From: Methanobrevibacter olleyae
GTDB taxonomy: Archaea > Methanobacteriota > Methanobacteria > Methanobacteriales > Methanobacteriaceae
Reading direction: 5' to 3'
Length of the DNA: 58,677 bases
Assembly: GCF_900114585.1 (NCBI RefSeq)
Contig: NZ_FOTL01000010.1
Location: forward strand, 1 to 58,677
The notes below the pieces were generated by a model. That model did not search any database. It was not told the DNA's origin and saw only the letters and a list, made by a program, of their open reading frames with translations. Each line of letters starts with the position of its first letter. The first letter of the stretch is position 1. This document shows, piece by piece, positions 9,174 to 48,579 of this stretch. Both the position numbers and the translations under genes were made by a program.

Positions 9174-10007
9174 TTAGTTTTTATTTAATAAGTTTAAAAA
9201 CTTATCACTTGCCTCTTCAATTGTCAAAGGATAATCATTTTCCATATCAATCCCTTCACTTTCTAATCTTTGGAAAAGCTCTGTGACAATTGGTACTTTT
9301 AGATTTGCTTTTTCAAGAATTTCTGGTTGTGCAAAAATTTCTTTAGTGCTTCCTTCTGCAATTAATAAACCATCCACTAAAACAAATACCTTTTTTGCAT
9401 AGTTAGGAACTAGGTCAACTTCATGAGTTGAAATAATAATTGTAATTCCTTCTTCATTAAGTTCCTTTAATAATCTAGTTAAGTCTGTTACTCCTTGAGG
9501 GTCAAGACCTGCAGTAGGTTCATCTAAAACCATTATTTTAGGTTTCATTGCAAGAATACCTGCAATAGCAACCCTTTTCTTCTGACCGCCACTTAGGTGA
9601 TGAGGCGCTTTTTTCTCAAATCCGCTCATTCCTACACGAGCTAATGCTTCTGTTACTCTTTTTTGAACTTCTTCCATAGGCAAACCTAGATTTAAAGGTC
9701 CAAAAGCAACATCCTCCTCTACTGTAGGTGCAAATATCTGATCATCAGGATTTTGAAAAACAATTCCTACTTTTTGCCTAAATTTAACTAGAGATTTTTT
9801 ATCATATTTTAATTCTTCACCTTCAATAAATACTTTACCTTCATCAGGCTCAAAGATACCGTTTAAATGAAGAAACAATGTAGATTTTCCAGCACCATTC
9901 TTACCTAAAAGAGCAATCATTTCTCCCTTTTCAACTTTTAAGCTAACTCCTTTAAGTGCTTGATACTTATTATTATAAGAGTATTTAATATTTTTCACTT
10001 CTAACAT
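9174..10007 (-). CDS. cbiO: cobalt/nickel ECF transporter ATPase CbiO
   Basis: A 277-residue ABC ATPase that powers the CbiMNQ cobalt importer. Walker A GKNGAGKST (35-43), Q-loop in VGIVFQNPDDQIFA, signature LSGGQKKR, Walker B IMVLDEPTAGLDPQG and the H-loop STHEVDLV are all present. The FQNPDDQ form and the ~40-residue C-terminal extension are typical of ECF-type CbiO/EcfA ATPases. It is the last gene of cbiMNQO and starts one base after the cbiQ stop, which suggests translational coupling. Methanogens need cobalt for the corrinoid of the Mtr methyltransferase. Confidence 0.95.
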   Translation of the reverse strand: MLEVKNIKYSYNNKYQALKGVSLKVEKGEMIALLGKNGAGKSTLFLHLNGIFEPDEGKVFIEGEELKYDKKSLVKFRQKVGIVFQNPDDQIFAPTVEEDVAFGPLNLGLPMEEVQKRVTEALARVGMSGFEKKAPHHLSGGQKKRVAIAGILAMKPKIMVLDEPTAGLDPQGVTDLTRLLKELNEEGITIIISTHEVDLVPNYAKKVFVLVDGLLIAEGSTKEIFAQPEILEKANLKVPIVTELFQRLESEGIDMENDYPLTIEEASDKFLNLLNKN

Positions 10008-10008
10008 T

Positions 10009-10704
10009 TTATTCCTCCTTTTTTGGAGGTATGTACACTGGAAGCTCTCCAGTATAGCCTCTAGAATCTAAAGCATGTTGTAATGTTTCACTTTTATCTA
10101 AAGATCTTAAAAATATAGTACTTATAAGAGCACCTAAAGATCGTAATGAACTCCAGTAGGAATGATAACCTAATCTAGTTTCTTGTGCTTTTTGCATTGT
10201 ATCAATTTCATTTAAAAATATGAATATTGTATTATACATTAAAAGTCCGATTTCAATAAGAATTTTAGGTACTTTCATTGTTTCTAAGCAATGGAAAATT
10301 TTTGCAATTGGTGTTGTTAAAGCAAGAAAACCTAAAGAAGGTAAACATCCAATAACTCTAAAGAATGTATACAGACCATAATGCCATGAGTTTCTAGTAA
10401 CTACAATGCCAAATATTCCTGTTTCATAGATAACATCACCCTTTCCAAAGAAAAATATTAAAAAGAGACATGTTATAATAAGAAATGCAAGGGGGATTGT
10501 TAAAAATTTTAAATAGGATTTATAGTTGATCTTTGCTATAGCTAATATTACAATAGACATTAGAATAAATATAAAAATATCGAAATATAGGTTATCTAGT
10601 GCTAATGTAGCAATTAATAGGATTATTGTTAAAAACAATTTAAAATAAGGATTTGCTTCAGTTAACTTATTATTATGGGCAATATAATCTATATCAAATT
10701 TCAT
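10009..10704 (-). CDS. cbiQ: cobalt ECF transporter transmembrane protein CbiQ
   Basis: A 231-residue T-component (EcfT family) linking CbiM to the ATPase. About five hydrophobic helices lie in the first ~130 residues and again near 150-190. The coupling-helix signatures follow: MQKAQETRLGYHS and LRSLDKSETLQHALDSRGYTG, which carry the conserved A-R-G type motifs that dock on CbiO. Third gene of the cbiMNQO operon, 35 bp after cbiN. Confidence 0.93.
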   Translation of the reverse strand: MKFDIDYIAHNNKLTEANPYFKLFLTIILLIATLALDNLYFDIFIFILMSIVILAIAKINYKSYLKFLTIPLAFLIITCLFLIFFFGKGDVIYETGIFGIVVTRNSWHYGLYTFFRVIGCLPSLGFLALTTPIAKIFHCLETMKVPKILIEIGLLMYNTIFIFLNEIDTMQKAQETRLGYHSYWSSLRSLGALISTIFLRSLDKSETLQHALDSRGYTGELPVYIPPKKEE

Positions 10705-12383: not shown

Positions 12384-12557
12384 TGAAATAAGAGTTATAA
12401 AATTCTTTATTTTTTGTTTTTTTTTAATTTTCTATTTTTAATCTTTTATTTTCTTATGGATTTATTCTTTAGATGATTTTAACTATTTTTATACTATTTT
12501 TATTTTAATTTATTAAAAATTTTCAAGATTCGATTATTTTATTGAATTTGTGATTAT

Positions 12558-13052
12558 ATGGATGAAGAAATAAAATTATTAAAGGAATTTGATTGTCCTG
12601 AATGGGTAATTGAGCATTCTAAAGGAGTTTCAAGAAAGGCTTGTGAAATTGCATCTAACTTTGATGATGTAGATATGGAGCTTGTAAGAGTTGGTGGCTT
12701 ATTACATGATATTGGCAGATCTAAAACTAATTCTATTGAACATGCAGTAATCGGTGCTCAAATACTTAAAAAGAGAGGATTTTCTGATGAAATAGTTAAT
12801 ATTGTTGAAAGACATATTGGAACTGGCCTTTCTGAAGAGGATTCAAAAGAATTAGGATTACCTATAAAATCTTATATTCCTCAAACTTTAGAAGAAAAAA
12901 TAGTTTCCCATGCAGATAATCTTTTTAATGGTGTTGAGGAAGTTGGTATTGATTTTACTATTAAAAAGTGGAAAAGAAAATTAGGTGAAAATCATCCATC
13001 TATTGAAAAAATTAAAGAAATTCATGAAGAGCTTGTTTTAAGATTTGAATAG
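12558..13052 (+). CDS. HD-domain metal-dependent phosphohydrolase (TIGR00295-like)
   Basis: A 164-residue protein with a single HD domain: His20, the His50-Asp51 pair in GGLLHDIGR, His62 and His86 in VERHIGTGL. The pattern and length match a small archaeal HD family related to the HDIG proteins; the substrate, probably a nucleotide or phosphoester, is unknown. The ribosome site is TGTGAT with 3 nt to ATG, a form seen several times in this window. Not obviously in an operon; a 28-bp tandem repeat follows. Confidence 0.85.
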
Positions 13053-13099
13053 TCTTTATAAAAACTATTTTATAAATGAAATTTAAATATTTAATATGT

Positions 13100-13230
13100 T
13101 TATTTAATTATTTATTCAATTTTTCATTTATTTAATTATTTATTCAATTTCTTATTTATTTAATTATTAATCCAATTTTTTATTTATTTAATTATTTATC
13201 CAATTTTTTATTTATTTAATTATTTTTAAT
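13100..13230. repeat. 28-bp tandem repeat, about 4.5 copies
   Basis: ATTTAATTA anchors at 13102, 13130, 13158, 13186 and 13214: exact 28-bp spacing. Unit sequence is TATTTAATTATTTATTCAAT plus a T-rich tail. Contiguous copies without spacers. It fills the gap between the HD gene and the ArcS-type gene. Confidence 0.92.
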
Positions 13231-13286
13231 TGATTATTGATTTTTATAATTAGTTATTAATTTTATAATTTTATACGAGGAAAAGA

Positions 13287-14198
13287 ATGAAAGTTATTTG
13301 TTCAAGTGATGAGTCATTATTTAGGCCTGAAGTAGTTAGATGGAGAGAAAGGATGTCTATGATGACACCTATAGGTGATGTAGTTGTAGTTCTCCCCTGT
13401 AGTATGAAAAAGCCATATTCTAATTCCCAATCTCATCAAAAATTTAGAAGAGCTACTAAAGGTTATCAAGAACTAATTGTAACTTCCCCATTTGGTATTT
13501 GTCCAAGAGAAATGGAAAATACATTTCCAATCCAATCTTATGATGTTGCAGTTTCTGGTGATTGGAATGAAGAGGAAATACGATTGGCTGGAGAGCTTCT
13601 TAGAGATTATGTTGGGGATAAAGCAGTAATTGCTAATGTTGATGGAGGCTATGAAGAGGTTTGTCGTGAGTATTTAGATAATTGTACCTATGTTTGTGTA
13701 GATGGTAGGCCTACATCTCCAGAGTCAATTTTTAATTTAAGAGAAGAACTTAAAAAATATCCAAAAACTAAACATAAGGATAGAGTTCTTAATGAACTTA
13801 AATCAATTGCTAAATATCAGTTCGGACTAGAAGCTGAAAAAATAATCACTGATGATGTTGTTACTAAAGGGAGATATCATAGAAATATTTATTCAAAAGG
13901 TAAGCAATTAGCCCTTCTTAATAGGGATATTGGTTTATATACTCTTAACCTTGAAGGAGCTAGAAGATTAGCTGAGCTAGGTATTCATATAGTTGAAATT
14001 GATTTTGACTTAAAAACAAATTCATTATTTGCTCCAGGTATTGTAAATGCAGATTTAACTATTCTTCCGAAAGATGAAGTTGCTGTTGTTAGAAATGATG
14101 AAATTGTAGCAGTTGGTAAAGCTGTTTTAACCGGTAAGGAAATGATGGAATCTAGAAATGGAATTGGAGTAAAAATAAGACATAGGAAGAAAAATTAG
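13287..14198 (+). CDS. archaeosine synthase-type protein (ArcS catalytic core plus PUA domain, without TGT-like N-terminus)
   Basis: ArcS converts preQ0 at tRNA position 15 towards archaeosine. The ArcS motif PCSMKKPYSNSQSH is complete at residues 37-50. The C-terminal ~80 residues (LYTLNLEGARRLAELG to the basic end RHRKKN) form a PUA RNA-binding domain. Full euryarchaeal ArcS proteins carry an extra N-terminal TGT-like domain and exceed 500 residues; this one is 303 residues and begins directly with the core. Either the TGT-like part is encoded elsewhere or this is the compact ArcS form that may work with a radical-SAM partner. GAGGAAAAGA precedes the ATG. Single gene. Confidence 0.82.
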   Translation: MKVICSSDESLFRPEVVRWRERMSMMTPIGDVVVVLPCSMKKPYSNSQSHQKFRRATKGYQELIVTSPFGICPREMENTFPIQSYDVAVSGDWNEEEIRLAGELLRDYVGDKAVIANVDGGYEEVCREYLDNCTYVCVDGRPTSPESIFNLREELKKYPKTKHKDRVLNELKSIAKYQFGLEAEKIITDDVVTKGRYHRNIYSKGKQLALLNRDIGLYTLNLEGARRLAELGIHIVEIDFDLKTNSLFAPGIVNADLTILPKDEVAVVRNDEIVAVGKAVLTGKEMMESRNGIGVKIRHRKKN

Positions 14199-18701: not shown

Positions 18702-19271
18702 ATGGAAAAATCAATTACTTATTTTGAAAAACCAGGTCCTATTAATACTGATGCTATTATAGGACTTGTAAAGGAAAGATTGAGAGAATCAGATATTAAA
18801 TATGTAGCAGTTGCCTCTTCTACTGGTGTGAGTGCTTTAAAACTCAATCAGGCATTAAAAGATTTAGATATAACTATTGTAAACTGTTCTCATCATGCAG
18901 GCTTTAAAGAAGTAAATAAAACAAGAATATCAGCTGAAACTAGAGCTCAACTTGAAGATGAAGGAATAGTCACTTTTATAGGGTCTCATGCTTTAAGTGG
19001 TGTTGGTAAAAGTATTTCTAAAAAATTTGGAGGGATTACTCCTGTAGAAATCATTGCTTCAACTTATAGAACAATTTCTCAAGGTTTTAAAGTATGTGCT
19101 GAGATTACTATTATGCTTGCTGATGCAGGATTAATTCCTGTTGGTGAAGAGGTAGTAGCTATTGGTGGAACTGGTAGTGGATTAGATACTGCTGTTGTTA
19201 TGACTGCAGCTAATATGACTAATGCCTTTGATATGAAATTCCATGAAATCATAGCTATGCCAAGACCTTAA
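18702..19271 (+). CDS. pyruvate kinase C-terminal-domain-like protein (COG1751)
   Basis: A 189-residue protein resembling the alpha/beta C-terminal domain of pyruvate kinase standing alone. Visible: VKERLRESDIKYVAVASSTGVSA, the core IVNCSHHAGFKE, and glycine-rich AIGGTGSGLDTAVVM. In pyruvate kinase this domain binds effectors; the free-standing archaeal and bacterial proteins have no settled function. GGGGAATTATT precedes the ATG. Single gene behind a triplicated promoter-like repeat. Confidence 0.85.
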   Translation: MEKSITYFEKPGPINTDAIIGLVKERLRESDIKYVAVASSTGVSALKLNQALKDLDITIVNCSHHAGFKEVNKTRISAETRAQLEDEGIVTFIGSHALSGVGKSISKKFGGITPVEIIASTYRTISQGFKVCAEITIMLADAGLIPVGEEVVAIGGTGSGLDTAVVMTAANMTNAFDMKFHEIIAMPRP

Positions 19272-42319: not shown

Positions 42320-42629
42320 TTAACAATTTTCTTAACTTTTTTTATTTGATCCTTTTTGATTCTTTTTATTTTGCTCATTTTTATTTATTCCTTTTTATTT
42401 TGCTCATTTTTATTACTTTTTTTATTTTTCTTAATAATTTCCTTTAATCTGCCTAATTTTTATAAATAATTTTATATGTAACTTTTAATAGATAATATAA
42501 TGTTATATGTTCTTTTGAAAACATAATCAGTTTAATTATATTAAAAACTTGGTTACTTAACTAAATAAATGATATTGTTAAATTATTTTTAAATTTTTTT
42601 AATTATTGAAATATAGGATTTGTGATAGG
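42320..42629. other. 310-bp spacer with short T-rich direct repeat
   Basis: TTTTTATTTTGCTCATTTTT occurs at about 42363 and 42392, directly downstream of radB, where it supplies several T-runs for termination. Then an AT-rich stretch with TATA-like TTTTATATGTAACT for the aminotransferase. Confidence 0.55.
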
Positions 42630-47718: not shown

Positions 47719-47919
47719 TTTTTATTTTTTTAATTTTTTTTTAAATTCAATAATGTTTAATTTTTATTTTTTTAGCTTCTTTTACAAGATTATTTTAAAG
47801 CTTTCTTAAAAAATACTAAGATATATATAATGCAAAAAATAAATAATTAATAGATGCTATTTTTATAAGTATTTTTTAATTTAATTTTTATAAATTATTT
47901 AACATTCAGTTGTGATATT

Positions 47920-48579
47920 ATTATTGAATGGGTTATTAAGATTGGTGGAAGCTTATTCCCAAAAAAAGCTATTGAATTAGCCGATGCACTTAAAGGCCAA
48001 AATTGTTTATTTCTTATTGGTGGAGGGGAATTTGCTAATCTTATTAGAAAATATGATTCTGAAATGGAATTTTCAGAGGATGTAACTCATGAGACAGCAA
48101 TCGATTCAATGGATATCTTAGCTAAATTGCTGAATGATAAATTAGCATTTACAGAAATTAGTTATACAATAAAAAAAGCCAATAGTATATCTAATTCTAA
48201 TAAAATACCAATTATGATTTGTTCAGAGATTCTAAAAGAGCATGAACCTTTTAGACATTCATGGGATATTAGCTCTGATTCAATTGCAGCTTATATTGCA
48301 AATCTTTTAAATGCAAAACTTTTAATAGCAACAAATGTAAATGGTATATATACTAAAGATCCATCTTTAAGTGGAGCAGAACTAATTAAAGAAATTGATG
48401 TAAATAAACTACTAACTTTTGATGAATCATCAATTGATTTAATGTTGCCTACTTTATTAATTGACTATGGATTAGATTGTTATGTTGTTAATGGTGAATA
48501 CCCTCAAAGAGTTTTATCCATAATGAATAATAAAACTTCAGATGGTTCATTTGATTGTACTTTTATACATAATAAATAA
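47920..48579 (+). CDS. mfnE: amino acid kinase-fold phosphate kinase of methanofuran synthesis (MfnE-like), apparent AUU start
   Basis: A 219-residue amino-acid-kinase-family protein. N-terminal nucleotide loop VIKIGGSLFPKK, then CLFLIGGGEFANLIRKYD, HSWDISSDSIAAYIANLL and LLIATNVNGIYTKDPSL, and a C-terminus with VVNGEYPQRVLSIM. MfnE phosphorylates the aminomethylfuran alcohol for methanofuran. Close linkage to aEF-1beta, as in other methanogens, supports the assignment. The first in-frame ATG (48064) would delete the phosphate-binding loop. No ATG, GTG or TTG occurs in frame between the stop at 47866 and there; TGTGAT lies 3 nt before the ATT at 47920, so initiation on AUU (M-I-E-W-V) is proposed. 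Confidence 0.78.
   Translation: MIEWVIKIGGSLFPKKAIELADALKGQNCLFLIGGGEFANLIRKYDSEMEFSEDVTHETAIDSMDILAKLLNDKLAFTEISYTIKKANSISNSNKIPIMICSEILKEHEPFRHSWDISSDSIAAYIANLLNAKLLIATNVNGIYTKDPSLSGAELIKEIDVNKLLTFDESSIDLMLPTLLIDYGLDCYVVNGEYPQRVLSIMNNKTSDGSFDCTFIHNK

Follow-up and report, generated by a model that had tools for sequence, protein, structure and literature searches.

In bacteria, near-cognate start codons are known. The infC gene, which encodes IF3, starts on AUU in E. coli and on ATC in Streptomyces, and this start is reported as deeply kept and mis-annotated (PMC5472188). The gene considered here, a probable mfnE, resembles infC in each of these respects, having a putative AUU/AUC start that is Shine-Dalgarno-led, deeply kept and mis-annotated. 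Unlike mfnE, which encodes a probable coenzyme-biosynthesis kinase, infC is bacterial, serves IF3 autoregulation and encodes a translation factor. A further difference is that the AUU of mfnE exchanges with AUG in relatives. IF3 is not known from Archaea. The sigR gene of Streptomyces starts on GTC and is repressed by IF3, and, like mfnE, has a near-cognate start that is kept across species and overlooked by annotation (PMC5472188). It differs from mfnE in its codon, in being bacterial and in having been shown by experiment.

The UUG and GUG starts of archaea share with mfnE non-AUG initiation and a Shine-Dalgarno match, and TTG and GTG also occupy the start column in relatives of a hycI-type gene described below. 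They differ from AUU and AUC in that the mismatch is at the first position and in being accepted as canonical. Archaeal recoding (Sec, Pyl and −1 frameshifting) likewise departs from standard decoding, whereas mfnE concerns initiation. According to a 2021 review, elongation and termination were the only steps for which non-canonical events had been demonstrated in archaea (PMC8211752). In a ribosome-profiling study of M. mazei, 5% of unannotated sORFs are reported to start on CTG. A literature search, which was partial and covered no subscription papers or preprints, turned up no AUU, AUC or ACG start from archaea. With near-cognate starts already known in bacteria, what would be new here is the domain, the breadth and the free exchange with AUG.

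An open frame without a canonical start codon

The window, the whole 58,677-nt stretch of DNA that was analysed, belongs to a draft assembly of 49 contigs (G000). Based on the sequence and a frame check, a frame on the forward strand runs from a TAA at 47866 to a stop at 48577–48579 and is open throughout. As the sequence-only reading had stated, no ATG, GTG or TTG is in frame between this TAA and the ATG at 48064, and translation from ATT 47920 yields a conserved nucleotide loop. The ORF caller used here accepts only ATG, GTG and TTG and does not read AUU, AUC or ACG. Its first acceptable codon was 48064, confirming that standard annotation would drop 48 residues. The features of the locus are as follows.

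47866–47868, + strand: in-frame TAA, the upstream bound of the open frame (from the sequence)
47903–47909, + strand: CATTCAG, a leader element just upstream of the Shine-Dalgarno match (CATTCAG or close to it in 16/18 genus genomes; G009 and G010 differ)
47911–47916, + strand: TGTGAT, the Shine-Dalgarno match (GTGAT of GGAGGTGAT), 3 nt before ATT 47920
47920–47922, + strand: ATT, the inferred initiation codon (ATT in 17/18 genus genomes; ATG in the same column in G008)
47920–48579, + strand: amino-acid-kinase family gene, probable mfnE, 219 codons plus stop (Pfam, NCBIfam, 7qrh)
47923–47925, + strand: ATT, the second codon, homologous by alignment to the ATG start of outgroup genera
48064–48066, + strand: first in-frame ATG, internal and inferred not to be the start (Met in 2/18; located after the VIKIGGSL loop)

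The product read from 47920 (IIEWVIKIGGSLFPKK) carries the glycine loop of amino-acid kinases, and the first strand and ATP loop of the kinase are encoded by the codons from 47920. Membership of the amino-acid-kinase fold family was met at 70.8 bits against Pfam AA_kinase (PF00696, cut-off 24.9), and the chain of a solved homologue, 7qrh, aligned from VIKIGGSL onward. The best named match was NCBIfam MfnE (NF040622), nearly full length at 145.9 bits. As the curated cut-off of 300 bits was not met, the name mfnE proposed by the sequence-only reading was retained only as 'probable mfnE'. Kinase activity on the furan substrate is putative.

The start column in the genus and the family

The gene was present in 18 of the 19 genomes searched of the window's genus; 12 further loci largely duplicated genomes already searched and were not counted twice. 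In 17 of the 18, the start region reads ATT ATT GA(A/T) TGG, and no canonical start occurs between this point and the in-frame stop upstream. The remaining genome, G008, reads ATG ATT GAA TGG, placing an ATG at the exact column of 47920 and thereby pinning the start position. This alignment supported the AUU start that had been proposed for 47920. Divergence within the genus (n = 18) was high and unstructured upstream and low over the Shine-Dalgarno match, and from the codon at 47920 (codon 0) it turned to the coding type, with the third position the most variable. The recurrence in 17/18 genomes, the coding-type variation from codon 0 and the rarity of Met at 48064 together indicate more than chance.

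Across the family, the gene was present in 124 of 138 genomes. Starts were read in all of these and in 12 outgroup genomes; 135 of the 136 loci were anchored by script, and the one that was not (L164) reads ATG at +1. The genus codes g1, g3, g5–g11 and g13 (97 genomes, 10 codes) fell into a single clade of the gene tree (support 96). Codon 0 in this clade was ATT in 41 genomes and ATC in 40 (81/97 for the two), ATG in three and another codon in 13; it was never ATA. In the 13, an ATG was found one codon upstream, and one of the genomes with ATT has it as well. Of the 2199 Ile codons in the remainder of the same genes, 867 are ATA, and ATA occupies codon +1 (47923) in 51/97 genomes. Since the rows are related by descent, this contrast is not a formal test. 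Outside the clade, all 38 anchored loci had ATG (33) or TTG (5) at codon 0, +1 or +2, mostly at +1. Parsimony on the gene tree, with ambiguous rows left free, gave seven changes: the canonical start was lost once at the clade base and regained once each in G129, G008 and G061, and the remaining switches fall inside g9. Among relatives, ATG was seen at the mfnE start column in G008, G061, G040 and G019. The position, its conservation, the exchange with AUG in relatives and the Shine-Dalgarno spacing detailed below are matters of direct observation.

Based on these comparisons, the favoured reading (probability about 0.88) is that translation would start at AUU 47920, placed by the Shine-Dalgarno match, and that near-cognate starts would also serve a few other genes of Methanobrevibacter-like archaea. 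The canonical start would have been lost once, at the base of the Methanobrevibacter-like clade, with AUU/AUC taking over at the codon just before the ancestral AUG. TGTGAT, three bases upstream of the new start, would place the 30S subunit through pairing between its GTGAT and the 16S rRNA 3′ end, bringing AUU 47920 into the P site. The initiator Met-tRNA would then read AUU with a third-position mismatch, and the protein would begin with Met. Use of the normal initiator tRNA, the N-terminal Met and a weak start that keeps expression low are inferred, there being no ribosome-profiling, peptide or reporter data.

Within the clade, 40/97 genomes wholly lacked an in-frame canonical codon (ATG, GTG or TTG) before codon +1 (17/18 in g1 and 8/58 in g9), and 17/97 had ATG at codon 0 or adjoining it. 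Some other in-frame canonical codon was present upstream in 40/97 (35/58 in g9), mostly a GTG inside the Shine-Dalgarno match, and a GTG start can therefore not be excluded in those genomes. In several relatives, in-frame stops lie just 5–7 codons upstream, so that the start must fall within that short stretch. It remains possible, though it is not the favoured view, that g9 (smithii-like) starts at the in-frame GTG at −3 and that AUU/AUC is used by the other genera only. Most of the 35 g9 genomes concerned have the in-frame GTG at −3 or −5, and g9 genomes with ATG at −1 lack GTGA, as expected if the start had moved. However, codon 0 is still ATT or ATC in the eight g9 genomes without any in-frame canonical codon, two of which (G063 and G085) keep GTGAT out of frame, and that GTG is not preceded by a suitably spaced Shine-Dalgarno match.

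The position of the Shine-Dalgarno match was compared with 172 orthologous ATG/ATG start pairs (344 starts) in a two-genome sample of related genomes. The GAT-to-start spacing had its mode at 3 nt (167 starts), with 86 starts at 4 nt and 18 at 6 nt. In the window, TGTGAT is 3 nt from 47920, as originally noted, and 6 nt from 47923; the GTGAT-N3-ATT arrangement meets the expectation of a near-cognate codon at proper spacing. The same motif and spacing were also found where they had been claimed, before the HD gene (TGTGAT 12549–12554, ATG 12558) and the aminotransferase gene (GTGAT 42622–42626, ATG 42630). Predicted anti-Shine-Dalgarno pairing averaged −6.9 kcal/mol in the 40 strict non-AUG genomes, compared to −3.7 (3 genomes) and −4.3 (14 genomes) before a regained ATG. 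The link between a non-AUG start and GTGA (62/80 vs 1/17) was not significant once the tree was controlled for (sign test on 5 pairs, median p 0.625). A pattern search for the 16S 3′ end in G000 gave no matches, hence the anti-Shine-Dalgarno was not read directly. The aIF1/SUI1 gene is present in G000. In Sulfolobus, aIF1 discriminates against near-cognate starts, and its presence was accordingly counted against the AUU start.

The second AUU, at 47923 in the ancestral AUG column, is an improbable site of initiation. This codon is ATT in all 18 genus genomes, as conserved there as 47920, and the ATG of the outgroups sits in its column. However, a start at 47923 would need the 6-nt spacing that is rare among the reference starts. 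Across the clade, codon +1 drifts (ATT, ATA, ATC, GTA, GTG, GCA) whereas codon 0 avoids ATA, and the regained ATG is found at codon 0 (G008, G061, G040) or −1 (14 genomes) but never at +1.

A start at ATG 48064, with the part upstream being a relic or noncoding, or the gene a pseudogene, is very hard to sustain, even though 48064 is the first canonical codon in frame. It was rejected on the pattern of divergence in the genus, where codons 2–47 show a third-position excess (215 synonymous vs 106 nonsynonymous differences from G000; n = 18), and on the presence of the Met in just 2/18 genomes. The upstream part also holds the VIKIGGSL loop that aligns with 7qrh. Equally little credence was given to initiation at GTG 47912 (frame +1), inside the Shine-Dalgarno match, followed by a −1 frameshift. 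Most genomes do carry this GTG in the motif, and in g9 it frequently falls in frame, at codon −3. However, it is directly followed by TAA in g8 (GGTGTAATA) and g10 reads GTG AAA AGA TTA TAG, the stops excluding this route for both; the GTG is missing at that place in G036, G041 and G096, and its frame relative to the gene is not constant between genera. The least credible alternative, a sequencing or assembly error concealing ATG or GTG at 47920 or 47923, which the sequence-only reading had named as its refutation, can be entertained for a draft assembly but is refuted by the agreement of separate assemblies on ATT in 17/18 genus genomes and on ATT or ATC in 81/97 of the clade.

Possible near-cognate starts in other genes

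Genes besides mfnE with a possible near-cognate start were sought by comparing stop-to-stop frames between 740 kb of the 1.85 Mb of G041 and 1,018 kb of the 2.27 Mb of G042, giving 357 non-overlapping reciprocal ortholog pairs of at least 80 bits each. Three further genes of G041 survived inspection, a hycI-type protease, an unnamed protein and the transcription factor TFB. Together with mfnE they represent ~1% of the pairs, which is a rough lower figure because a gene that happens to have an in-frame GTG or TTG escapes the screen. The sequence-only reading, supported for its own gene, was drawn too narrowly, as the start extends far beyond Methanobrevibacter in the strict sense and other near-cognate starts are inferred in these genomes. 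The first two genes are located as follows.

L206:9708–10202, − strand: hycI-type hydrogenase maturation protease (relatives L341–L370)
L210:16911–17717, − strand: unnamed conserved protein of ~267 residues (relatives L371–L400)

The protease matched TIGR00142 (hycI) at 140.7 bits against a cut-off of 119.1. Its start column, usually behind GGTGAT, was ATT in seven genomes, ATC in two, ATG in five, TTG in six and GTG in one (21 alignable of 30 genomes). The nine genomes that could not be aligned at the start, the window's own included, were left out of this count. The unnamed protein had no match in Pfam or NCBIfam. Its start column was ATT in 16 genomes, ATG in 12 and ATA in one, with one of the 30 unalignable, and nine of the 16 ATT genomes had no upstream in-frame canonical codon. 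The window's own genome has ATT at this column, and also an in-frame GTG three codons upstream.

Sequence conservation suggests that, across the family, translation of the general transcription factor TFB begins at a conserved ACG, which follows a strong Shine-Dalgarno sequence. The loci read were L242–L271, L272 (the window's genome) and L273–L320. In all 30 g9 loci, ACG lies 8 nt after a GGAGG-type sequence, in a frame without an upstream canonical codon. Of 20 further regions, 18 have ACG in the equivalent position; of the other two, G012, a member of the window's genus, shows ATG in this column and G122 lacks ACG. The same holds for 26 of 29 more loci, the exceptions being G024 and G027, with ATG in the column, and G102, with neither. 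Three genomes in all thus have ATG at this column. In the window's own genome (contig C42, ~12807–13799), ACG is present and there is no canonical codon before the zinc ribbon. ACG accounts for 1.4% of Thr codons in G041. In g1 and g9, ACG appears to be the only start. In g4, g5, g7, g11, g15, g16 and the outgroups, ATG follows a few codons after ACG, and there ACG may be an additional or former start. A mini-ORF beginning in GGATGAG, with −1 slippage at AAAAAG, was rejected, since ATG and GTG are both absent there from three of the 30 g9 loci (L244, L246, L247), and the A run is AAGAAG in five (L250, L254, L257, L258, L262).

Other candidates were not counted. A scan of start columns produced a list of mostly antisense shadow frames, from which only the unnamed protein and TFB were kept. 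Two strong Shine-Dalgarno ATT/ATT pairs were set aside, a TiaS-like gene whose start is made ambiguous by an in-frame GTG inside GGTGAT, and a second unnamed gene with ATG three codons upstream in one genome. Candidates A2317, A3104, A2648 and B574 could be frameshifts, truncations or missing starts, A2830 and A2863 resemble conserved leaders and B656 is weak. The window ORF at 9177–10067 was also flagged, but the preceding gene extends into its upstream part, and it was therefore not counted.

Some of these merit separate description. The TiaS-like gene (G041 ~430243–431505, minus strand, within L210) begins TAG GTG ATT TTA ATT AAA; the in-frame GTG of GGTGAT would pass as a start, and the AUU four bases later fits better. 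A2317 (G041 532589–533144, joined sample) is homologous to the window gene at 18702. Unlike its G042 partner, it lacks a canonical start and meets a stop a short way upstream, potentially reflecting a frameshift or another unusual start. The pair A2830/B2530 (G041 ~733889–735728 and its G042 partner) shares the leader TTTAGGTANACCTAAA, conserved immediately before the ATG start in both genomes; it is a near-perfect palindrome and resembles an operator or RNA element.

Implications for annotation and initiation

In this gut methanogen, mfnE has no normal start codon and almost certainly begins at AUU, a start inferred for a few other genes as well, so that standard annotation will trim the fronts of the proteins. 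If the proposed near-cognate starts are correct, gene models restricted to ATG, GTG and TTG would drop catalytic or regulatory N-termini in these genomes. The GTG inside the common GGTGAT Shine-Dalgarno sequence could also be mistaken for a start, and is likely a general annotation trap. The third-position strictness of archaeal initiation (aIF1, aIF2 and Met-tRNAi) would become testable, since closely related species that differ naturally in AUU or AUG already provide the comparisons.

A joint reading of all these genes can be offered only tentatively, and is more doubtful than the start proposed for mfnE. AUU/AUC would be an ordinary minor start, used by ~1 gene in 100 and exchanging with AUG, UUG and GUG; the ACG of TFB would be family-wide; and a change in fidelity would shift these genes together. 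If so, a change in fidelity, for instance through the amount of aIF1, would move TFB, the hydrogenase protease and the coenzyme enzyme in concert. This would be the archaeal counterpart of the IF3–infC–SigR logic, although repression by a fidelity factor, with aIF1 as the candidate, is hypothetical here. In Methanobrevibacter-like archaea, near-cognate starts seem to make up a minor but regular share of translation and, if borne out, would constitute evolutionary evidence for AUU, AUC and ACG starts in Archaea, across genera that include the main gut methanogens.
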